NCBI RefSeq assembly: GCF_021172165.1
Contig: NZ_CP089096.1
Location: 1,302,001 to 1,366,000 of the forward strand
Source of the DNA: Flavobacterium channae
Lineage (GTDB): Bacteria > Bacteroidota > Bacteroidia > Flavobacteriales > Flavobacteriaceae
DNA length: 64,000 nucleotides
Reading direction: 5' to 3'
Part shown: positions 50,251-60,615 of the stretch, one piece after another
Layout of the letters: every line of letters begins with the position of its first letter
Position numbering within the stretch: position 1 is the stretch's first letter
Notes under the pieces: generated by a model
Told to the model about the DNA's origin: nothing
What the model saw: only the letters and a program-made list of their open reading frames with translations
Databases searched by the model: none
Position numbers and translations under genes: made by a program

Positions 50251-51000
50251 TTAATATTTTCCACTCAATAATTCACCTCCAATAGCTGATTTTGCTTCAA
50301 TATTTAATTTTTTCATCATTTCATACGTAGTACAAACGGCTGCAGAAGTAACCGGAATGCCACATTCTGCCTGAATTAAATCGATGGCCTCTAAAGAAGG
50401 CATTTGCACACAAGCTGAAGCTACTAAAACATCTACATCCGTTAAATCCAATTGTTTGTAGATTTCCAATAAATTCATTGGGTTTTGAGCTGCAACTTCT
50501 AAATTATCAGGAATTTCCAATGCAATGCTTTCTTTTACTTTTATACCTTGATGTTCGATATAATCCACTACTTTGTCCGTTAATGGACGCATATACGGGG
50601 TAATAATGGAAATTTGTTTGGCACCTAAAACTTTCAATCCATTAATCAAAGCACCAGCAGAAGTTACAATTGGAGTAGGGAAGTCATTCGCTACGGTTTC
50701 TTGGTGTAAATTTACTTCTGAAACACAATGATAACCGCGCCCCATACTCATAATTGCAACCAAACAAGCGTAACCCATAACATCTATGTGAGCATCAGAT
50801 AATTCTTGAGCACATTTTAAACTCATTTTATCCATAGCTTCCAGTTCTTCTTTGGTTACTTTTTTCATTCGCATTCTACTGCTATGAAAAGTAAAGCGTT
50901 CTGGTAAAATCGTTTCTCTTGAACGGAAAATTGCTGGAATTTCCGTTTCCATTGTAATATTTGAAGAAGGAACAATTTGTCCTATTCTGTATTTTTTCAT
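50251..51000 (-). CDS. Maleate cis-trans isomerase-like protein (Asp/Glu racemase superfamily)
   Basis: A 249-residue enzyme of the maleate isomerase/arylmalonate decarboxylase family; it would turn maleate into fumarate. The two active-site cysteines are Cys79 (MGYACLVAI) and Cys197 (VASACVQMPSL), with spacing matching MaiA-type isomerases, and the N-terminal RIGQIVPSSNITMETE binds the substrate carboxylate. The gene ends the ring-cleavage cluster, which supplies the expected substrate. Arylmalonate decarboxylase has only one of these cysteines, so isomerase is preferred. Confidence 0.87.
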   Translation of the reverse strand: MKKYRIGQIVPSSNITMETEIPAIFRSRETILPERFTFHSSRMRMKKVTKEELEAMDKMSLKCAQELSDAHIDVMGYACLVAIMSMGRGYHCVSEVNLHQETVANDFPTPIVTSAGALINGLKVLGAKQISIITPYMRPLTDKVVDYIEHQGIKVKESIALEIPDNLEVAAQNPMNLLEIYKQLDLTDVDVLVASACVQMPSLEAIDLIQAECGIPVTSAAVCTTYEMMKKLNIEAKSAIGGELLSGKY

Positions 51001-51002
51001 TA

Positions 51003-51914
51003 CTATATTTCTTTTACTGTATTTACAATTGTTCCGATTCCTTCAACAGTTGCTTCTACTACATCACCATTGTACATCCATTCTTGAGGATCACGACCGG
51101 CACCAACACCTGCAGGAGTTCCGGTTGCAATGATATCACCAGCTTCTAAAGTAAAAACGGTACTTAAATCTTCAATCAAATCATTAATATTGAACAACAT
51201 GAATTTTGTATTTGAATTTTGTTTTTCAACGCCATTTACTTTTAATGATAAATTCAAGTTGTGAGGGTTTTCAATTTCGTCTTTAGTTACTAAAATTGGT
51301 CCCATAGGAGCAAAAGTATCTTGACCCTTAGAAACAATCCATTGTCCTTCACGACGACAATCACGTGCCGAAATATCGTTAATAACCGTATAGCCAAATA
51401 CATAATCTAATGCTTCAGATTTTGGTACGTATTTCCCTTTCTTTGAGATAATTACAGCTAATTCAACTTCCCAGTCCAATTGTTCTGTTAGCTTGGTATT
51501 TTTGATAATCTCCGTATTAGTTGCCGTTACTGTAGTTGGTGGTTTTGAGAAGATAATTGGTTTGGCTGGTAATTTTCCTGTTGTATCTAAAGTACGAGCA
51601 CTTTCGGCAATATGTTCAGTATAATTTAATCCAATTCCAATAATATTTTTACGAGGTTTTTCAATAGGTGCCATGAAAATAACATCATCTATTTCATGAG
51701 CGATTTCCTCGAAGAAATTCTCTGGTGTATCTGCAATTAAATCTGTGATTTCTTCAATAATTTCATATCCCAAATCAATTAATTCTAACATGTCGTTTGG
51801 TAACGGGAAATTGGAAACATCTCCAAAATCTTGCATGTCGATTACTTGATTGTTGTGAATGAATCCTAATCGTGATTCGTTGTTATCTTTAGTTGTATAA
51901 GTAAGTAATTTCAT
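51003..51914 (-). CDS. Fumarylacetoacetate-hydrolase-family protein
   Basis: A 303-residue FAH-fold hydrolase. Mg-binding residues are Glu149 and Glu151 (LDWEVELAVI) and Asp180 (VINDISARD), and the catalytic His is His101 (LNYTEHIAE). In gentisate-type pathways this family hydrolyses maleylpyruvate or fumarylpyruvate. It is placed between the dioxygenase and maleate isomerase genes, so I infer hydrolysis of the ring-cleavage product to pyruvate and maleate (or maleamate). 8 bases from the dioxygenase gene. Confidence 0.88.
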   Translation of the reverse strand: MKLLTYTTKDNNESRLGFIHNNQVIDMQDFGDVSNFPLPNDMLELIDLGYEIIEEITDLIADTPENFFEEIAHEIDDVIFMAPIEKPRKNIIGIGLNYTEHIAESARTLDTTGKLPAKPIIFSKPPTTVTATNTEIIKNTKLTEQLDWEVELAVIISKKGKYVPKSEALDYVFGYTVINDISARDCRREGQWIVSKGQDTFAPMGPILVTKDEIENPHNLNLSLKVNGVEKQNSNTKFMLFNINDLIEDLSTVFTLEAGDIIATGTPAGVGAGRDPQEWMYNGDVVEATVEGIGTIVNTVKEI

Positions 51915-51921
51915 TTGTATT

Positions 51922-53040
51922 TTATTGTTGTATTGTTTGATGTCCGTTGTTTTCTGTAAATTCTCTTCCTTGGAATAAGCCTAGACTTTCAATCACTGGT
52001 AAATCATTGAAGTTGAATAAACAAGCATCTTCTATGTCTGAAAGATTATGATGTTCGTGCCAAGCCCAACTCGGAACACAGAAAATATCGCGTTCTTTCC
52101 AATCGAAACGTTTTCCATTGATGATGGTATATCCTTTACCTTTTGCACATTGGTAAACGAAAGAACCCGTATGTTTATGTGCTTTCCCTTTAAAACCAGC
52201 TGGTAACAATTGCATAGCAGCTCCCATAGTTTGCATCACATGTCCGCCAGTTAATGGATTTGAATATTGCATAAAAATTCCATCAAATGGATTTACTTCT
52301 GTTACTTTTTGTGCTTCTAATAATGCTGGATATACATTTTTCCAAGAATATTTGAATAATGGTGAATACGGTTTATCCCATGTTTGATCAGCAGGAATCA
52401 ATCCAGCACAACCATAAGTGATTGGTGAAAAGTTTAATGGTTTTACCAATTCTTGTTTACCTTCATAAACTGCATAATCATTCGCTTCTAAGGCATTCAC
52501 TAACGGAATATCCAATCCGTCTTGCCAAATACAGGTTTTTCCACCTTCTTCAACTCCGTGTTCGTGCCAAGTTGAATTTGGTGTAATCACAAAATCATTT
52601 ACTTCTAGCATGATTTTATTGCCATCGACTACAGTATATCCTTTTTCGCCTTCCATAATAAAACGTAGGGCAGAAGCTTTATGACGATGCGCTGAAGTAA
52701 ATTCACCTGGTCGTGTTACTTGAATTCCTGTATATAACCAACCTACAGCGGCCGAAACGTCTTTTCTTTTATCATTTACCAAATACACAACGCGTCTTCC
52801 GGCTTGTTCAGGCGTTACCAATTCAGATGATTTTAAAACCAATTCTCTTAAATCATCATATTTCCAGAGCATTGGAACAGAAGTAGAGCGGGGTTCCCAA
52901 GGTTCAATGTCGTTGGCAACTGTCCATAAAGCACCAGCACCAAGACTTTCTAATTCTTTGTAATACGCTTTTAGTTCGTCAGATTCTTGAACTCTTGCGC
53001 GTCCGTAAATATCATCAGAATATTGATTTTCTTCCATCAT
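51922..53040 (-). CDS. Bicupin ring-cleavage dioxygenase, gentisate 1,2-dioxygenase-like
   Basis: A 372-residue protein with two cupin domains, length typical for gentisate 1,2-dioxygenase (Fe(II), ring opening between C1 and C2). The N-terminal cupin holds the iron ligands His118, His120 (SAHRHKAS) and His159 (TWHEHG). The C-terminal cupin has a similar pattern (KAHKHTGS, AWHEHH). The gene overlaps the nitrilase ATG by one base (TAATG on the minus strand). Gentisate is one possible substrate, 5-hydroxyanthranilate another. Confidence 0.9.
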   Translation of the reverse strand: MMEENQYSDDIYGRARVQESDELKAYYKELESLGAGALWTVANDIEPWEPRSTSVPMLWKYDDLRELVLKSSELVTPEQAGRRVVYLVNDKRKDVSAAVGWLYTGIQVTRPGEFTSAHRHKASALRFIMEGEKGYTVVDGNKIMLEVNDFVITPNSTWHEHGVEEGGKTCIWQDGLDIPLVNALEANDYAVYEGKQELVKPLNFSPITYGCAGLIPADQTWDKPYSPLFKYSWKNVYPALLEAQKVTEVNPFDGIFMQYSNPLTGGHVMQTMGAAMQLLPAGFKGKAHKHTGSFVYQCAKGKGYTIINGKRFDWKERDIFCVPSWAWHEHHNLSDIEDACLFNFNDLPVIESLGLFQGREFTENNGHQTIQQ

Positions 53041-54020
53041 TATCTTTTGTTAAATTCGTCGTGATCGTTTATAAAAGTGATTTTTCGAGTCGGAGCAGTG
53101 TTTACTCGTAAATCGAAAATATCAAATCGATTGTAATGCCCTAAAATATCGTGCATTTGTTTCGGTTGTATACATTTTGCTAAATCAATATCGGCATAAA
53201 CCATTCCTTCTTCATCAATTAATGGTTGCCCAATAACAGCACCATTTGGACCAATAAATCCAGAGAAAGCAGAACTTTTTCTATCCAATAATTCATCAAC
53301 ATTTGGGACATCAGCTCGTAAAGCATCTTTAATTTCTTGCGAAATTGTAGAGCAAGAAACGATTGTAAATAGTTTTCCTTCGAAAGAATGCGCAGCAGCA
53401 CGAATTTTAATTGCTTCCGCCATGTCGTAATCGGGTGGTGCTACTGGAAGTGAAATATAATTCGCAATATGAATCAATTCACCTTGAGAAAGTAGCGTAA
53501 AACGCGCTAAAGTGTTCGTGTTCTCGCCACAAGCAAGAGTTCCAATTGGACCAATTTCAGTGTCGTAAACTTTTAACGAAGAACCATCACCAGAAGACCA
53601 AGTTAGTTTTTCAGCCCATGTTGGAACTAATTTTCTATGTTTTCCAACAATAACGCCTCTATTATCAATAATTAAATTGGTATTGTAAATTTCGCCATAG
53701 CTTTTGCCTCGTTCGTTGATTCCCATCACAATATGAATATCATTGTCTTTAGCAGCTAAGCATAGTTTTTTAATTTCTGGACCTGTAACATCAACCGAAT
53801 TTTTATACAATTCTTCATACCATTTACTACCCTGAACCGGAGTCATAATCCAATTCCAGTAAGGATATCCAGCGATAAAAACCTCTGGAAAAGCGATTAA
53901 TTTTGCGCCGTTATTGCTAGCTTCTTTAATGAAAGAAATAGCTTTATCCACTGTTTTTTCTACATTTAGAAATACAGGTGACGTTTGAACGGTTGCTGCT
54001 TTGAATTTTTTGAATTCCAT
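53040..54020 (-). CDS. Nitrilase-superfamily C-N hydrolase
   Basis: A 326-residue hydrolase with the Glu-Lys-Cys triad: Glu46 (IAFPEVFIAGYP), Lys130 (VGKHRKLVPT) and Cys164 (GTLACGENTNTLAR). The CGEN form of the nucleophile motif is typical of true nitrilases and related amidases. It lies within an aromatic catabolic operon, coupled to the dioxygenase gene. Salicylate/gentisate degradation needs no C-N bond cleavage, so its presence points to an amino-substituted substrate; the reaction it would perform here is hydrolysis of an amide (see finding). Confidence 0.9.
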   Translation of the reverse strand: MEFKKFKAATVQTSPVFLNVEKTVDKAISFIKEASNNGAKLIAFPEVFIAGYPYWNWIMTPVQGSKWYEELYKNSVDVTGPEIKKLCLAAKDNDIHIVMGINERGKSYGEIYNTNLIIDNRGVIVGKHRKLVPTWAEKLTWSSGDGSSLKVYDTEIGPIGTLACGENTNTLARFTLLSQGELIHIANYISLPVAPPDYDMAEAIKIRAAAHSFEGKLFTIVSCSTISQEIKDALRADVPNVDELLDRKSSAFSGFIGPNGAVIGQPLIDEEGMVYADIDLAKCIQPKQMHDILGHYNRFDIFDLRVNTAPTRKITFINDHDEFNKR

Positions 54021-54026
54021 ACTAGT

Positions 54027-54107
54027 ATAATTACGAATTTAAAATTACAAATTATGAATTGAAAACGAGTCTAAATCGTAATTCATAATTGGTAATTCAT
54101 AATTTTT
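54027..54107. repeat. AT-rich imperfect palindrome with AATTACGAATT/AATTCATAATT units
   Basis: TAATTACGAATT and AATTATGAATT in the left half and two AATTCATAATT copies in the right half can form a long hairpin. It fills the 62-base gap between the nitrilase and thioesterase genes and overlaps the 3' end of the latter. The same units flank the four-helix-bundle gene. Confidence 0.6.
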
Positions 54108-54502
54108 GTTTTCATTTCTTCACTAAAAGGTTCGGCTTTGATACCGTTTCTTTCCGGGTTGAAAGCAACGTTGACTAAAGTAACTTCGCCTTCTAAAACG
54201 GTGTTTTTAGATTCATTTACAAACTGAAATCCGCAAAGAATAGAAGAGTTTTTTAATTCTTTTACCCACAATTTTTTGGTTAACATTTCACCTAAACGAG
54301 CAGCATTTTTGAATTGAATTTTTAAATCAACCGTTGGAATTCCATTGGTTTCGTGCATTTTTGAAAAAGGACGATCTAAAGCTTCTTCAAACCAATCTTC
54401 TACTAAGCAATTTAGCATTTCTAAAAATCGGGGATAGAAGACAATTCCAGCATAATCAACATGTTGGAAACGTACTTTTTCTTGTTTTGTGAATTGACTC
54501 AT
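54083..54502 (-). CDS. 4-hydroxybenzoyl-CoA-thioesterase-type (4HBT) hotdog thioesterase
   Basis: A 139-residue hotdog thioesterase. The motif VRFQHVDYAGIVFYPRFLE (10-28) contains the catalytic Asp16 of the 4HBT family. Its place after the ligase gene suggests release of the hydroxylated aromatic acid from its CoA thioester before ring cleavage. The first gene pair (ligase-thioesterase) is 17 bases apart. Confidence 0.88.
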   Translation of the reverse strand: MSQFTKQEKVRFQHVDYAGIVFYPRFLEMLNCLVEDWFEEALDRPFSKMHETNGIPTVDLKIQFKNAARLGEMLTKKLWVKELKNSSILCGFQFVNESKNTVLEGEVTLVNVAFNPERNGIKAEPFSEEMKTKIMNYQL

Positions 54503-54519
54503 TATATATTTCTTGATAC

Positions 54520-56100
54520 TTATTTCAACTTAAATCTCTGTATTTTTCCAGTTTCCGTTTTCGGTAAACATTCTACGAAATTAATCACTCTTGGATATTT
54601 ATATGGAGCAGCTACTTCTTTGAACCAGTGTTGAATACTATTCTTCATTGTATCTGTCGCTTTAGTATAATCGTGTAATACAATATGCGCACAGACTAAC
54701 ATTCCTCGTTCTTCATCAGGTAAGCCAACCACGGCACATTCCAAGATATCTTCGTGGGTTAAAAGTACGGATTCTACTTCAATTGCCGCAATATTATAAC
54801 CCGAAGAAATGATCATATCATCGCCACGAGCTACAAAATGAAAATATCCTTCTTCATCTTGACGGAAAATATCGCCTGTGATGTTCCAACCGTTTTCTAC
54901 GTATTCTCTTTGTTTTTCTTCTCGATTTAAGTATTTACAACCTGTAATTCCACGAACGGCTAGTCTTCCAGCTTCGTTTCTTGGTAATTCGTTGCCTTGT
55001 TTGTCAATGATTTTGGCTTCGTAACCAGTAATGGCTTTTCCTGTAGCGCCCGGTTTCATGTTCTCTTCATTGGATGAAATAAAAATATGTAACATTTCGG
55101 TAGCACCAATGCCGTCTATGATTTTTAAACCCGTAGTATCATACCAATCTTGCCATACTTTCAATGGCAAAGTTTCGCCTGCAGATACACATTTTCTTAA
55201 ACTCGAAATATCGTAATCTTGCACTTTTGTGGTGATAATACGCCATGCAGTAGGAGCAGTAAAGCAAATCGTTATTTTAAAATCTTGAATTGCTTTCAAT
55301 AATAAATCTGGACTAGGTTTTTCAATTAAAAATGTGGAAGCTCCGAAATACATTGGAAATAATACCAATCCGCCCAAACCAAAAGTAAATCCTAATGGTG
55401 GACTTCCCGTGAAGATATCGTTTTGTGTGGGTTGTAAAGAATAGTTTGGAAATGCTTCGCAAATATTCAAAATATCTCTGTGATAATGTGCTGTCATTTT
55501 AGGTAAACCCGTAGTTCCAGAAGTGAAGCCAATCAAAGCAATTGAATCCGATTTGGAATGATAGTTATCGAAAGTTTTCGGTTTAGAAGCCATTAATTCC
55601 TCCAATTGTGAATTGCCATAAAAACAGGTTTGTTTTAGAAAATCTAATTTAACTAAATGTATTTCTTCTTCCAATTCCTTATCACACAATACATGTGAGA
55701 TTTCAGCACAATCGATAATGGTAGTTAATTCTTTGCAACGAAGTAATGGCATGGTTGCCACGACAATTCCTCCCGCTTTTAAAATGGCGAACCAACACGC
55801 AACCATCATCGGATTATTAGCCGAACGAATTAAAACACGATTACCTGATTTCAAACCTAAATCATCGACCAAAACATGAGCAATTTGATTCGCTTTTTCA
55901 TACAAATCTTGATACGTCCAAGTCTCCTCAAACGTACGAATACAACTATTATTTCCACGACCTTCTCGAATATGATTATCTAGTAATTTATCCACACAAT
56001 TCAACATTTCTGGTTGTTGGAATTGCGGTAAATCCAAAAAGGTATATTCTGGTTGTAATTCCAGAGCTGATAAGCTATTATGAGCGAAATTATCCTTCAT
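54520..56100 (-). CDS. Aryl-CoA ligase (benzoate/2-aminobenzoate-CoA ligase type)
   Basis: A 526-residue AMP-forming ligase that activates an aromatic acid with CoA and ATP. P-loop-like motif FTSGTTGLPK (192-201), A5-like GIGATEML, A7/A8 segment NITGDIFRQ...FHFVARGDDMI, and the C-terminal catalytic Lys region PKTETGKIQRFKLK. The sequence resembles the 2-aminobenzoate/benzoate-CoA ligases, which supports an ortho-substituted benzoate such as anthranilate or salicylate. Confidence 0.9.
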   Translation of the reverse strand: MKDNFAHNSLSALELQPEYTFLDLPQFQQPEMLNCVDKLLDNHIREGRGNNSCIRTFEETWTYQDLYEKANQIAHVLVDDLGLKSGNRVLIRSANNPMMVACWFAILKAGGIVVATMPLLRCKELTTIIDCAEISHVLCDKELEEEIHLVKLDFLKQTCFYGNSQLEELMASKPKTFDNYHSKSDSIALIGFTSGTTGLPKMTAHYHRDILNICEAFPNYSLQPTQNDIFTGSPPLGFTFGLGGLVLFPMYFGASTFLIEKPSPDLLLKAIQDFKITICFTAPTAWRIITTKVQDYDISSLRKCVSAGETLPLKVWQDWYDTTGLKIIDGIGATEMLHIFISSNEENMKPGATGKAITGYEAKIIDKQGNELPRNEAGRLAVRGITGCKYLNREEKQREYVENGWNITGDIFRQDEEGYFHFVARGDDMIISSGYNIAAIEVESVLLTHEDILECAVVGLPDEERGMLVCAHIVLHDYTKATDTMKNSIQHWFKEVAAPYKYPRVINFVECLPKTETGKIQRFKLK

Positions 56101-56134
56101 TAATTACGAATTTTAAATTACGAATTACGTAACG
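56101..56134. repeat. AATTACGAATT repeats, 3' side of the four-helix-bundle gene
   Basis: TAATTACGAATTTTAAATTA and a second CGAATTACG at 56101-56129, overlapping the stop codon region of the four-helix gene. Same units as at 54027 and 56469. Confidence 0.6.
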
Positions 56135-56471
56135 TTTTTTGAATAGAACCAATTATTCTAAGTAACTCATCAACATCTTTAAGTAAGCTGTCTGCTTCTT
56201 CAATTGATAAATAATCAGTATCTTTTAATAATCTAATCCAATAATGAGTTTCTCTTGCTTCTTTATAGGATATGGTTAATTTGGCGAAAAAATCTTTTCC
56301 TGATTGTCCTCCAATAGCTTCTTCAATATTAGCACCAATAGAAGTTCCACATCTTAGAAGTTGTTTACTTAAAACAAACTCTTTTTTCTGTTCAGATAAA
56401 TATTTAAAAACCTTAATTATTCGTACCGCAAACGCATAACTTTTTATTTGAACAACGTTATCATTTTTCAT
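56118..56471 (-). CDS. Four-helix-bundle protein (23S rRNA intervening-sequence-type)
   Basis: A 117-residue helical protein of the four-helix-bundle family, related to the S23/IVS-encoded and Avd-like proteins. Family segments are SYAFAVRIIKVFKYL, LRCGTSIGANIEEAIGGQSG and KLTISYKEARETHYWIRLL. It is inserted between the aryl-CoA ligase and the monooxygenase genes, and AATTACGAATT-type repeats flank it on both sides. It has no visible link to the catabolic function. Confidence 0.9.
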   Translation of the reverse strand: MKNDNVVQIKSYAFAVRIIKVFKYLSEQKKEFVLSKQLLRCGTSIGANIEEAIGGQSGKDFFAKLTISYKEARETHYWIRLLKDTDYLSIEEADSLLKDVDELLRIIGSIQKTLRNS

Positions 56472-56505
56472 AATTCGTAATTTCTAATTTCTAATTCGTA
56501 ATTAT
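56469..56505. repeat. AATTCGTAATT repeats, 5' side of the four-helix-bundle gene
   Basis: Copies CATAATTCGTAATT and CTAATTCGTAATT separated by TTCTAATTT; they overlap the four-helix start codon and are the inverted form of the units on the gene's other side. Confidence 0.6.
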
Positions 56506-58845
56506 TTACTTCTTATTACTTTTAGGTTTTAATGCTTTTTTCATTCCTTCCATTTGCTTTCTTTCAGCAGCTTTTAGCGGATACAAATGTGAAACGCCCA
56601 TTTTATATTGATTTGGAATATCATTTGCTTGAAATTGTTCGTAAGCTTGCGCGTTTCTTACGAAATTAGAATCCAACAATAATGGTCTTCCTAAAGCGAC
56701 TAAATCAGCTCTTCCGTTTAGAATAATCGTATTGATTTGGTCGATATCTTGAATGTAGCCAGCGGTTATAGTTGGAATATGAACAGTATTTCGAACGGCA
56801 TCCGAAAAAGGCGTTTGCCACATTCTTCCCGTTAATGGTTTTTGACCTGCCACTGTATTTCCTGTTGAAACATTGATGATGTCTGCTCCAGCATTTTTGA
56901 AAGCAGTAGCAATAGTGATTACTTCTTGTTCTGAAATTCCATTTTCTGCCCAATCGGTTGCTGAAATTCGCACTGAAATTGGTTTTTCAGTTGGAAATAC
57001 TTCGCGAATGGCTTTAAATACTTCTAATGGATATTTTAAACGATTTTCGATGTTTCCACCAAATTCATCCGTACGAATATTAGTTAATGGTGATAAGAAA
57101 GAAGCTAATAAAAAGCCGTGATGTGCTTGCAATTCGATCATATCAAAGCCTGCTTCGTTTGCATTTTTTGTAGCTTGAACAAATTGCGCTTTAATTTCTG
57201 CCATATCTTCCAAAGTCATTTCCTTTGGAGTAGCGAAATTGTCATTAAATGGAATAGGAGAAGCGGAAATTAAATTCCAATTATTTTCAATTGGTCCGTT
57301 TCCTTCCCAAGGTTTTTTTGTTGCGCCTTTTCGTCCCGAATGACCTAATTGAATTCCGATTTTACTTGAAGTATTATCATGAATAAAATCAGTTATTTTT
57401 TTCCATTGGTATAATTGTTCCTTAGTATAAATTCCAGCACAACCGTCCGTGATTCTTCCGGTTTCAGAAATGGCGGTCATTTCGGTAATGATTAAACCAA
57501 CACCACCAGTAGCGCGACTTCCATAATGTACCAAATGCCAATCAGAAACTAAACCTTCTGTTGCAGTATATTGTCCCATTGGCGCCATAACGATGCGATT
57601 TGGGAGTTCTAATTCTCGTAATTTAAAAGGAGTAAATGCAGCGCTTTTGCCTTCGAGAACCTCAGGCAACGCATTTTTATTTGAACTGTTGGCTGAGGCA
57701 CTCGAAGCCAATTGTTCTTGATAAAATTCGTTCAATACTTTATCGGTAAACGAACTATCTCTCAAACGTAAATTCTCATACGTTACTTTTTTAGAGCGTG
57801 TCATACAACCAAACGCAAATTGTTGGAATGGATGTTGAATGTGACGATCCATATTTTCAAACCAATCTAACGAAACTACGGCAGCATACTGAATCATTTC
57901 TACTGTATTTCTTCTAGTTTTATCATATTGTTCAAAAGCAGCTTGCACATTATTTGGATTCGCAATTACAGCATCCGATAATCCAATAGCACAATCCATT
58001 GCTAATTTGGTTCCTGAACCAATAGAGTAGTGGGCTGTAGCTTTGGCATCACCTAATAAAACAATGTTGTTATGATACCAATTTTGATTCGTTACATGTG
58101 GAAATTGTCTCCAATGCGATTTATTGGATATCAGCGGATGTCCGTCTAATTCGTCTTTGAAGATTTCTGCGATTTTAGTCATTGTATCTTCTTCATTTGT
58201 AACTTCAAAACCGTGTTTTTGCCAAGTTTCTTCACTACATTCAAAAATCCAAGTACTCATTCCTTCTTCATATTGATAGGTATGCGCAACAATGGTTCCT
58301 TGAGGTGTACTTCTGAAAAAATAAGTAAAAGCATCTAAAGGCTTTGTAGAACCTAACCAAACGAATCTGTTTTTCTTTAATTCGATTTTTGTACCAAATT
58401 CTTTTTCATATTTTGTTCGAACAGCACTTGCAATTCCATCTGAAGCCAAAATAATGTCAGAATCTGCGAATTGTGATAAATCCTCAACATTTTGTTCAAA
58501 GTGAAGATTTACACCTTCTTCTGTACAACGTTGATGTAATAATTTTAATAATGTTTTTCGTGAACAACCGCAAAAACCGTTTCCAGCAATACTTACTTCT
58601 TCACCATCGCGAGCCACAATAATATCATCCCAATAGGCAAATTTGCTACGAATAAGTTCATACGATTGCATATCGCGTTTTAGAAATTCACCTAAGGTTT
58701 CATCTGAAAAAACAACGCCAAAACCAAAACTATCATCAGGTTTGTTGCGTTCGTAAATATCAATCTGGCAATGAGGCATTGCTTTTTTGGTTAATATTGA
58801 GAAATATAATCCGCCTGGACCACCACCTATAACTGTTATTTTCAT
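56506..58845 (-). CDS. Fused FAD monooxygenase / old-yellow-enzyme (2-aminobenzoyl-CoA monooxygenase/reductase type)
   Basis: A 779-residue two-domain flavoenzyme. Residues about 1-390: class A FAD monooxygenase (FAD loop GGGPGGLYF at 7-15, LLGDAKATAHYSIGSG near 265). Residues about 410-765: OYE-like FMN domain (NRIVMAPMGQYTATEG, QLGHSGRKG). The same fusion is known from 2-aminobenzoyl-CoA monooxygenase/reductase of Azoarcus and from salicylyl-CoA 5-hydroxylases. Both use an aryl-CoA, which fits the neighbouring ligase. It would 5-hydroxylate the ring. Confidence 0.92.
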   Translation of the reverse strand: MKITVIGGGPGGLYFSILTKKAMPHCQIDIYERNKPDDSFGFGVVFSDETLGEFLKRDMQSYELIRSKFAYWDDIIVARDGEEVSIAGNGFCGCSRKTLLKLLHQRCTEEGVNLHFEQNVEDLSQFADSDIILASDGIASAVRTKYEKEFGTKIELKKNRFVWLGSTKPLDAFTYFFRSTPQGTIVAHTYQYEEGMSTWIFECSEETWQKHGFEVTNEEDTMTKIAEIFKDELDGHPLISNKSHWRQFPHVTNQNWYHNNIVLLGDAKATAHYSIGSGTKLAMDCAIGLSDAVIANPNNVQAAFEQYDKTRRNTVEMIQYAAVVSLDWFENMDRHIQHPFQQFAFGCMTRSKKVTYENLRLRDSSFTDKVLNEFYQEQLASSASANSSNKNALPEVLEGKSAAFTPFKLRELELPNRIVMAPMGQYTATEGLVSDWHLVHYGSRATGGVGLIITEMTAISETGRITDGCAGIYTKEQLYQWKKITDFIHDNTSSKIGIQLGHSGRKGATKKPWEGNGPIENNWNLISASPIPFNDNFATPKEMTLEDMAEIKAQFVQATKNANEAGFDMIELQAHHGFLLASFLSPLTNIRTDEFGGNIENRLKYPLEVFKAIREVFPTEKPISVRISATDWAENGISEQEVITIATAFKNAGADIINVSTGNTVAGQKPLTGRMWQTPFSDAVRNTVHIPTITAGYIQDIDQINTIILNGRADLVALGRPLLLDSNFVRNAQAYEQFQANDIPNQYKMGVSHLYPLKAAERKQMEGMKKALKPKSNKK

Positions 58846-58848
58846 ATT

Positions 58849-58885
58849 TTTAATTGATAATTAGCAATTGAGAATTGATAATTAA
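58849..58885. repeat. TTGATAATTAGCAATTGAG repeat unit
   Basis: Two TTGATAATTA units around AGCAATTGAGAATT between the monooxygenase and SRPBCC genes; AT-rich, similar in type to the other intergenic repeats of this cluster. Confidence 0.45.
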
Positions 58886-58900
58886 TTTTTTGAGTAAATT

Positions 58901-59356
58901 TTATTTTTTCATGAAATCAAAAGCGCCTTTACGCAAATTGATTCCGTATTCTAAATATGCTTTTAAACAACTTAAAAAGTTAGACCAACCGAATGAATTT
59001 CCAGAAAGCCATTTTAAACCTGCTTCAGTATTCTCCATGCTTTTCTCAGTAATGGTAACTAAAGTTGAATTGTTTTCTTTTTCTGAAAGCGTAATCTCTA
59101 CTAATAAGTCGATTCCGGAATTTTCCCAATAGAATGAAACGTATTTATTGTTTTCTATTTTTTCTACTTTAACAGGGCATTCAAAATCAAATTCAGGGAA
59201 TTTCCAAATGATATTGGTGCCTTCTTCCATTCTTCCTGTACTAGTTGCAATGAAATAATTGGCCATTTTTTCTGGATTTACAATAGCTTCAAAAACTTCA
59301 TTAATTGTCTTTTGAATTTGCATTGCACATTTTATTTCTAATTGATCAGGACTCAT
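58901..59356 (-). CDS. SRPBCC/AHSA1-like START-fold protein
   Basis: A 151-residue protein of the AHSA1/SRPBCC fold (IQKTINEVFEAIVNPEKMANYF ... FPEFDFECPVKVEKI ... WLSGNSFGWSNFLSCLKAYLEYG). These proteins bind hydrophobic ligands. It lies between two flavoenzyme genes of the catabolic cluster, two bases upstream of... the next gene's coding end, so it is co-transcribed, but a role in the pathway is not established. Confidence 0.83.
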   Translation of the reverse strand: MSPDQLEIKCAMQIQKTINEVFEAIVNPEKMANYFIATSTGRMEEGTNIIWKFPEFDFECPVKVEKIENNKYVSFYWENSGIDLLVEITLSEKENNSTLVTITEKSMENTEAGLKWLSGNSFGWSNFLSCLKAYLEYGINLRKGAFDFMKK

Positions 59357-59358
59357 AA

Positions 59359-59964
59359 TTAACCTCTTTTAATTGAGAATATTTCACCTAGTTTGCTATA
59401 ATTAGAACCTGCTAAACGAGCAACAGGTTTGTAGGTTTCTAAATTAATTCTGTGATTTTCCATTAAAATTGAATCGTCAATATGTATGGTAATAATTTTA
59501 CCAATAATAATACAAGCACCACCATTTTGATGATTTTCGATAAAATAATGATGTACCATTTCACATTCAAAATGAACTAAACTTTCTTTAACGCGTTTTG
59601 GTGTAACGTAAATAGAATCAATTGGAGTAACTCCAGCTAATTGGAATTCATCAACATCAGAAGATACACTTTGCGATGTGGTATTCATTTGTTCAACCAC
59701 ATCTTCAGTAACTAAATTGACAACAAATTGCTTGTTATAAAGAATGTTATTTAGAGTGTCTTTGTTTTTATTTCCAGTTCTTACGGTTGAAAACATTACG
59801 TGTGGAGGATCTTCACTTACTACATTAAAAAAAGAAAAAGGAGCAAGATTGTTAATTCCGTTTGAATCAACTGAGGAAATCCATCCAATAGGTCTTGGAA
59901 TTACTGTACCAGTTAAAAGTTTATATAATGCCGAAGATTCGGTATTTTTTATATCGAATTGCAT
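59359..59964 (-). CDS. Flavin-reductase-family (split-barrel FMN-binding) protein
   Basis: A 201-residue protein with the flavin reductase/DIM6-NTAB fold (LLTGTVIPRPIGWISSVD, NLAPFSFFNVVSEDPPHVMFS at its start). It is the first gene of the ten-gene minus-strand cluster, two bases before the SRPBCC gene. It may supply reduced FMN, or act itself as a hydrolase or oxidoreductase on a pathway intermediate; several members of this family are found in aromatic clusters with unknown role. Confidence 0.85.
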   Translation of the reverse strand: MQFDIKNTESSALYKLLTGTVIPRPIGWISSVDSNGINNLAPFSFFNVVSEDPPHVMFSTVRTGNKNKDTLNNILYNKQFVVNLVTEDVVEQMNTTSQSVSSDVDEFQLAGVTPIDSIYVTPKRVKESLVHFECEMVHHYFIENHQNGGACIIIGKIITIHIDDSILMENHRINLETYKPVARLAGSNYSKLGEIFSIKRG

Positions 59965-60195: not shown

Positions 60196-60615
60196 ATGGA
60201 AATTTTGTTTTGCCCTAAATGTCAAAGTAACACCATTGTTAAAAGTGGAATAATAAAAGATAGACAACGTTATTTATGCAAAACTTGTAACTATTATTTC
60301 ACAGTCAATAAATTAGGTAAGAAGATAGATGATTACTATGTAACTAAAGCGCTTCAACTGTATTTAGAGGGTTTAAGTTTTAGAGAGATTGAACGAATTA
60401 TAGGCGTTTCGCATGTTTCTATTAGTAATTGGGTAAAAGAGTTTAAAATTAAGAAACCACCACATCCAAATTACCATCCTACTTATAAGATTTTTAAGCA
60501 TAATGAGTTGGTAGAATATCTTCAAAACAAAGAACAATTATCTGGTGCGGGTATGATTATTACAGAACTAGGAGATAAGTTTATGCTAATAAAATGGGAA
60601 CGTTTTAAAGATTAG
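60196..60615 (+). CDS. Zinc-ribbon/HTH protein related to IS1 InsA (probable regulator)
   Basis: A 139-residue protein with an N-terminal C4 zinc ribbon (FCPKCQSNTIVKSG, then YLCKTCNYYF, residues 4-35), followed by an HTH (GLSFREIERIIGVSHVSISNWV, about 55-76) as in InsA-type DNA-binding subunits. No catalytic subunit, DDE domain or inverted repeats accompany it, and the C-terminal region is novel. It sits just before the porin/symporter operon, so a domesticated transposase acting as regulator is likely. Confidence 0.82.
   Translation: MEILFCPKCQSNTIVKSGIIKDRQRYLCKTCNYYFTVNKLGKKIDDYYVTKALQLYLEGLSFREIERIIGVSHVSISNWVKEFKIKKPPHPNYHPTYKIFKHNELVEYLQNKEQLSGAGMIITELGDKFMLIKWERFKD

Follow-up and report, generated by a model that had tools for sequence, protein, structure and literature searches.

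A conserved gene cluster of Flavobacterium channae as a candidate operon for anthranilate breakdown through 5-hydroxyanthranilate and maleamate

A cluster of ten genes in a 64,000-nucleotide stretch of the Flavobacterium channae genome (contig NZ_CP089096.1, positions 1,302,001 to 1,366,000; the whole stretch is called the window, and coordinates are counted from its first nucleotide) is probably an operon that lets the cell grow on, or dispose of, anthranilate, a compound arising from tryptophan and indole, by way of 5-hydroxyanthranilate cleavage and maleamate hydrolysis. The ten open reading frames (ORFs), separated by short gaps, all lie on the minus strand and run from 59964 down to 50251 in the order FR, AHSA1, MOX, IVP, LIG, TE, NIT, CUP, FAH, MI; the first-pass annotation of this DNA had described ten same-strand genes with one insertion, here IVP, and this description is borne out. 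From gene content, gene order, kinship and a change in the ene-reductase half of MOX, all read from the sequence, we infer every substrate and product named below. On the same comparisons the cluster is real, conserved and patchily distributed. The genome searched is complete and consists of a single contig of 2.8 Mb.

The proposed route would start with LIG (54520..56100), an AMP-binding protein and predicted anthranilate-CoA ligase converting anthranilate to 2-aminobenzoyl-coenzyme A (2-aminobenzoyl-CoA). The flavin adenine dinucleotide (FAD) half of MOX (56506..58845), a fusion of the FAD_binding_3 and Oxidored_FMN domains predicted to be a 2-aminobenzoyl-CoA 5-hydroxylase with an impaired reductase half, would hydroxylate this ester at C5, and the product would stay aromatic, since a portion of the substrate-binding site of the fused ene-reductase half is lost. 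The 4HBT thioesterase TE (54083..54502) would then free 5-hydroxyanthranilate from the CoA ester, and the two-domain cupin CUP (51922..53040), a predicted 5-hydroxyanthranilate 1,2-dioxygenase, would open the ring at the bond that joins the carbon with the carboxyl group to the carbon with the amino group, which would make an amide of the ring nitrogen. FAH (51003..51914), of the fumarylacetoacetate-hydrolase family (FAA_hydrolase, PF01557, 231 bits), would split off pyruvate and leave maleamate; NIT (53040..54020), a nitrilase-family C-N hydrolase and predicted maleamate amidase, would convert maleamate to maleate and ammonia, and could also act ahead of FAH; finally MI (50251..51000), of the maleate isomerase/Amdase group and a predicted maleate cis-trans isomerase, would turn maleate into fumarate. 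Cleavage of 5-hydroxyanthranilate to an amide by a cupin and hydrolysis of maleamate by a nitrilase-family enzyme would be the two signature steps.

Conservation was assessed in loci from a pattern scan that took the nitrilase as its seed, the best 80 of 414 relatives being used; as the loci were picked by nitrilase, NIT is present in all 80 by construction. The order FR-MOX-LIG-TE-NIT-CUP-FAH-MI on one strand is kept in 63 of them, and the other 17, many of which end at a contig end (not each checked), hold a subset of the eight genes in unchanged order. A search for the same gene order, with kynureninase, in other flavobacteria had been suggested in the first-pass annotation, and judging by the 80 loci the eight-gene arrangement is not due to chance. 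Named close relatives of the window's nitrilase come mostly from Flavobacterium, and at E values of at most 1e-100 the enzyme was found in 51 of the 121 genomes sampled within the genus, a patchy distribution. In the family sample 10 of 199 genomes pass E 1e-60, the close matches being the genome itself and Sediminicola luteus (65%) and the other eight reaching 41–44%. Matches to NIT and to MOX in the phylum-wide samples (5 of 296 each, the genome itself included) are confined to the genus and therefore add no phylogenetic depth. Nitrilases 86–87% identical to that of the window also occur in metagenome-assembled genome records titled Rhizobium, Sphingobacterium and Bifidobacterium, which are probably mislabelled or contaminated.

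NIT, a match to the CN_hydrolase family, retains Glu46, Lys130 and Cys164, which we take to be the catalytic triad of the nitrilase superfamily, and it scores 235.4 bits against the Nit6803 nitrilase model TIGR04048, under the cut-off of 502.6. Its linkage to CUP extends across phyla. Among 15 plasmid cupin loci (15 of the 17 listed records at least 54% identical to CUP, one Novosphingobium and one partial Leisingera match being left out), 13 contain a nitrilase-family gene, which is orthologous to NIT in eight, all eight with MI, and belongs to another subfamily in five. The second subfamily (loci L112, L113, L115, L118 and L121) is 31–34% identical and accompanied by a flavin-reductase-like gene, one member lying about 6 kb from CUP, and none of these five loci gave an MI match. 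That the same cupin is accompanied by nitrilases of two subfamilies suggests that C-N hydrolysis is needed there. No nitrilase-family gene was found in the four gentisate-dioxygenase-like loci (four of the 13 other records among the 30 of 84 listed). Maleamate amidases of the NicF/Ami type belong to the isochorismatase fold family. NIT is not of this type, being a CN_hydrolase instead, and the isochorismatase family (PF00857) has no match in the genome, which makes NIT the best candidate for a maleamate hydrolase. MI matches PDB entry 4fq7, a maleate cis-trans isomerase, with 319 bits over its full length, and its Cys79 and Cys197 align with cysteines of that enzyme. With a maleate cis-trans isomerase as the closest solved relative of MI, the idea that the cluster ends in maleate, which is then isomerised, gains support.

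MOX, like 2-aminobenzoyl-CoA monooxygenase/reductase, joins an FAD hydroxylase to a domain of the old yellow enzyme (OYE) family. A pair of histidines binds the substrate in thermophilic-like OYEs, according to passages of PMC10787880 and PMC4589676. In the OYE half of MOX the first histidine of the pair is replaced by Gln573 and the tyrosine after the pair by Phe578; thus, the earlier claim that all active sites are intact holds for NIT, MI and CUP and fails for this half. The motif was found in 71 of the 80 related loci (nine lack it in the DNA examined), and all 71 have Gln, CUP being present in 69 of them and not seen in L036 and L086. Gln is likewise found in all six other cupin clusters (Sediminicola, Caballeronia SBC1, Cupriavidus and three Novosphingobium loci). 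His is present in all nine fusions that do not stand beside this bicupin (Arthrobacter, Paracoccus, Ruegeria, Comamonas, Gemmatirosa, Rhodococcus, Caballeronia SBC2, Deinococcus and an unlinked Shinella copy); apart from the Shinella copy, the loci of these His-type fusions gave no CUP or NIT match at E 1e-3. Four further loci, L133–L136, all with Gln, may come from genomes already represented in the 80 and were excluded from the counts. In a tree of 23 fusions, with eight Flavobacterium-type loci and the window among the rows and L143 left out, the His/Gln trait changes at least three times, and still three times with the motif columns removed; a single Gln clade was rejected with p_AU 4.7e-6, the group having been named after the tree was seen. 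The His-to-Gln change fits a weakened reductase half, and to this extent the suggestion that the OYE half may be silent is strengthened. We lean slightly towards a wider picture, in which each of three joinings of the fusion to a cupin cluster would have disarmed the reductase at the same histidine, turning ring reduction into ring cleavage; a mobile cassette of the four genes CUP, FAH, NIT and MI in Bacteroidota, Pseudomonadota and Actinomycetota would take 2-aminobenzoyl-CoA from tryptophan, indole or isatin and would provide the genes still lacking for the 'gentisate-type' anthranilate route put forward in 1968 and 1983.

The lower cassette NIT, CUP, FAH and MI was also found in Sediminicola, Caballeronia, roseobacters, Shinella and Embleya. 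Between the window and Caballeronia, identity amounts to 65% for NIT, 63% for CUP, 65% for MI and 53% for FAH, with 44% for MOX and 30% for TE (a 4HBT match whose relatives in Caballeronia and Sediminicola are 30–47% identical); by this measure the lower cassette is shared between clusters, the upper part less so. The Caballeronia SBC1 cluster has the order IorA-IorB-TE-MOX-CUP-FAH-NIT-MI-MarR-cyclase; its 18 listed genes include no ligase, and tblastn gave no LIG match. In Sediminicola luteus, three stretches of which were examined and gave no match to LIG, one strand carries FR, IclR, an LLM monooxygenase, MI, FAH, CUP and NIT, and the other carries genes for a short-chain dehydrogenase/reductase (SDR), StyA-like and StyB-like proteins, MOX, an isatin-hydrolase-like protein and IorA, then IorB, a desaturase-like protein (assigned by eye) and TE. 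The isatin-hydrolase-like protein of Sediminicola matches a solved isatin hydrolase, PDB 5nmp, with 368 bits over 247 residues, and the cyclases of Caballeronia and Sediminicola are 65% identical. In Ruegeria, Shinella, Sagittula and Sulfitobacter THAF37 the genes IorA, IorB and TE lie on one strand and NIT-CUP-FAH-MI on the opposite one; three of these four loci show a cyclase-family gene within the stretch shown, and three have acyl-CoA ligases just 22–32% identical to LIG. Oxidation of isatinate with CoA by an enzyme of the IorAB type would yield 2-aminobenzoyl-CoA, which would also be the simplest common product of an isatin hydrolase and a 2-oxoacid:CoA oxidoreductase, and the sister clusters could thus supply this ester by means other than a ligase.

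LIG itself is 46–52% identical to ligases standing beside six His-type MOX genes. Genes of the beta-oxidation type, for enoyl-CoA hydratase and acyl-CoA dehydrogenase, are present in four of these six clusters, one of the four adjoining tryptophan 2,3-dioxygenase, and the remaining two, from Arthrobacter and Rhodococcus, have another gene make-up. By plasmid and gene order the Arthrobacter ligase appears to be the one described, in part of PMC3534580, as active on anthranilate. The Arthrobacter and Rhodococcus clusters (L129:5481-12394 and L138:4972-12376) combine a His-type fusion with a small single-domain cupin, FAH, a thioesterase and RidA, and possibly represent a third variant. The comparative evidence favours anthranilate over salicylate as the best-supported substrate, and the substrate named in the first-pass annotation has gained ground from the isatin-hydrolase-like and IorAB genes of the sister clusters and from the kinship of LIG with ligases of 2-aminobenzoyl-CoA clusters.

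CUP is closest to gentisate 1,2-dioxygenase, scoring 307.5 bits against TIGR02272, under the cut-off of 442.1, and keeps both cupin histidine sets in common with the Sediminicola cupin. It is 59% identical to a cupin of Ruegeria pomeroyi that matches PDB 3bu7 over its full length with 901 bits, and the 3bu7 protein, GDOsp, appears to come from the NIT-CUP-FAH-MI cluster of that species. Twenty-one positions, each conserved in 22 or more of the 23 rows, split the 23 cupins of the clade from four gentisate-type cupins; among them are Glu160 (Asp in 4/4 gentisate-type cupins) and Gln173 (Leu in 4/4), which adjoin active-site residues.

Several points weigh against the anthranilate route as proposed. 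The structure 3bu7 was published under a title naming gentisate 1,2-dioxygenase. The residues binding gentisate in SDO/GDO are given, in a passage of PMC11264262, as Arg127, His162, Trp172 and Asp174 (SDO numbering), and Asp174 meets the 5-hydroxyl of gentisate according to part of PMC10306065. In CUP the iron-ligand histidines and the equivalents of all four residues are kept (mapping by eye), and since these include the contacts to the ring carboxyl and the 5-hydroxyl, the pocket is compatible with gentisate too; the residue pattern fits either 5-hydroxyanthranilate or gentisate. A nitrilase was not found in the stretch examined in two of the 15 plasmid cupin loci, from Cupriavidus (L111) and Sulfitobacter alexandrii (L116). 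Nine plasmid-collection records carry the cupin cassette with no adjacent MOX: in a search covering these nine records (not a tenth, from Embleya, nor the strains' other replicons), seven show no MOX and two, Ruegeria and Shinella, one unlinked His-type copy. As for the OYE half, three pairs in three agree with the cupin linkage, and three independent changes are too few for significance (sign test p 0.25); in AfOYE1 about 30% of activity remained after the OYE histidines were changed to Leu, as described in part of PMC10787880, so Gln may not silence the domain and 'weakened' is a safer word than 'dead'. For the sister clusters, where IorAB may form the CoA ester, a preprint on the iad auxin pathway (PMC12633357) states in the passage concerned that nine genes, iadC-K2, are enough to form anthranilic acid, with iadA unnamed there. 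Finally, tryptophan 2,3-dioxygenase (TDO) and kynureninase do not track the cluster across the genus sample, and a 3-HAO family gene is present in the genome, so that kynureninase and TDO may serve the synthesis of nicotinamide adenine dinucleotide.

With kynureninase (G000:C1:462326-463564, elsewhere in the genome) and TDO both present, anthranilate can arise in the cell. The linkage to kynureninase suggested in the first-pass annotation was not found: in the 121 sampled genomes of the genus kynureninase is near-universal (117) and the cluster nitrilase occurs in 51. Co-occurrence with kynureninase and TDO was rejected as evidence, both genes being near-universal (TDO in 112 of 121). No kynurenine genes were recognised among the recurrent extra families of the 80 loci, for which the starts of representative sequences were read and no dedicated search was made.

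Four other explanations were weighed. The cluster could serve a salicylate pathway, in which LIG would form salicylyl-CoA, MOX gentisyl-CoA and TE gentisate, CUP would be an ordinary gentisate dioxygenase and NIT would have a side role. NCBI calls the relatives of MOX salicylyl-CoA 5-hydroxylase/oxidoreductase, and 3bu7 bears the name of a gentisate dioxygenase; however, MOX scores 994.4 bits against the NCBIfam model PRK08255 (bifunctional salicylyl-CoA 5-hydroxylase/oxidoreductase), under the cut-off of 1078, so that MOX and CUP both fall below the curated cut-offs of these families, the sister clusters contain isatin-hydrolase-like cyclase and IorAB genes, and the four gentisate-dioxygenase-like loci have neither a maleate isomerase nor a nitrilase match. 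A salicylate pathway is thus unlikely. It is quite improbable that 5-hydroxyanthranilate is deaminated to gentisate before ring opening, with CUP cleaving gentisate, as proposed for Nocardia opaca. This order of intermediates, 5-hydroxyanthranilate and then gentisate, in N. opaca and the occurrence of gentisate in the indole-degrading Alcaligenes In3 are described in parts of PMC4539516 and PMC6221969, and CUP resembles 3bu7. Against it, no family recognised as an aryl-amine deaminase occurs among the ten genes. The substrates of nitrilase-family enzymes are nitriles and amides rather than ring amines, and this also speaks against a deamination.

The classical 2-aminobenzoyl-CoA monooxygenase/reductase route, with ring reduction followed by beta-oxidation-like steps, employs the same fusion as MOX and is known from Azoarcus (described in part of PMC4539516), but it is very improbable here, as the ten genes include no enoyl-CoA hydratase, acyl-CoA dehydrogenase or RidA, all three of which are present in the Paracoccus, Ruegeria, Comamonas and Deinococcus clusters, and as the OYE histidine is lost in MOX. 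Hardly any credence is given to NIT as a nitrile hydrolase or other amidase of an upper pathway merely travelling with the cupin: its best models are nitrilases, and relatives 45–56% identical to the Caballeronia NIT stand without a cupin match in L122, L127 and L128, yet in the loci examined nitrilases at least 59% identical to that of the window or of Caballeronia adjoin CUP, FAH and MI in three phyla with differing upper genes.

The first gene, FR (59359..59964, minus strand; Pfam Flavin_Reduct), encodes a flavin-reductase-like protein and is present in 70 of the 80 related loci, and distant copies (30–38%) occur in six proteobacterial cupin loci, although a monooxygenase of the single-component type would not be expected to require a separate flavin reductase. 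The AHSA1/SRPBCC protein (58901..59356, minus strand; family match AHSA1) is found in 12 of the 80 loci. IVP (56118..56471, minus strand; TIGR02436, 110 bits), a 23S_rRNA_IVP four-helix bundle probably outside the pathway, is present at full length in nine and as a fragment in one. On these counts both look like accessories. IVP, which lies between MOX and LIG, is missing from some of the closest loci (L012 and L013) and looks like an insertion that moves or is readily lost. In 24 of the 75 loci with both LIG and TE a glutamate-synthase-domain gene lies between them (L089:7539-9155 and 26 other family members, one member scanned), perhaps with a role in ammonia assimilation. Divergently from the cluster, 60196..60615 on the plus strand encodes a small protein resembling, by eye, a zinc-ribbon/helix-turn-helix DNA-binding protein; it has no Pfam match at E 1e-4, has a divergent neighbour counterpart in 24 of 65 eligible loci and is a possible regulator.

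If the proposed route is correct, the cluster provides candidate genes for an anthranilate route without a known gene and connects that route with the degradation of indole and isatin in other phyla; it would also imply a new substrate for a dioxygenase and a new task for a nitrilase-family enzyme. The recurring His-to-Gln change could act as a one-residue marker for sorting automatically annotated 'salicylyl-CoA 5-hydroxylase/oxidoreductases' into ring-cleaving and ring-reducing enzymes. A 2018 review (PMC6221969) states, in the passage concerned, that no gene is known for the anthranilate route via 5-hydroxyanthranilate and gentisate. For anthranilate-grown Arthrobacter Rue61a a CoA ester presumed to be hydroxyanthraniloyl-CoA is mentioned in part of PMC3534580, together with a lack of growth on 5-hydroxyanthranilate itself. 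Among openly licensed papers none was found that assigns genes to the cleavage of 5-hydroxyanthranilate to maleamate, which is weak evidence of absence.

The cluster can be compared with four known systems. With the aerobic 2-aminobenzoyl-CoA pathway of Azoarcus evansii it shares a (here predicted) anthranilate-CoA ligase and the fused FAD/OYE enzyme, but it is devoid of beta-oxidation genes, has Gln in place of the OYE histidine and is predicted to cleave the ring by a cupin. It resembles the gentisate pathway, and 3bu7, in the cupin family, the iron-binding histidines and ring cleavage followed by FAH, and differs in its predicted amino substrate, in the 21 separating positions and in the nitrilase and maleate isomerase that follow, with 3bu7 itself falling in the window's cupin clade. 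The lower nicotinate/nicotine pathway of Pseudomonas putida S16 leads from maleamate to maleate and fumarate (described in part of PMC3812094); the same sequence is predicted here, with an MI close to 4fq7, whereas the enzyme acting on maleamate would be of the nitrilase family in a genome with no isochorismatase-family match, and the maleamate would derive from anthranilate. Among the iif genes of indole degradation are those for a two-component oxygenase and an SDR (PMC6221969, in part), and iif and iad auxin degradation are both echoed in the StyA/StyB-like, SDR, isatin-hydrolase-like and IorAB genes of the sister clusters; those systems run down to anthranilate, whereas the cassette of the window would run onward from it.

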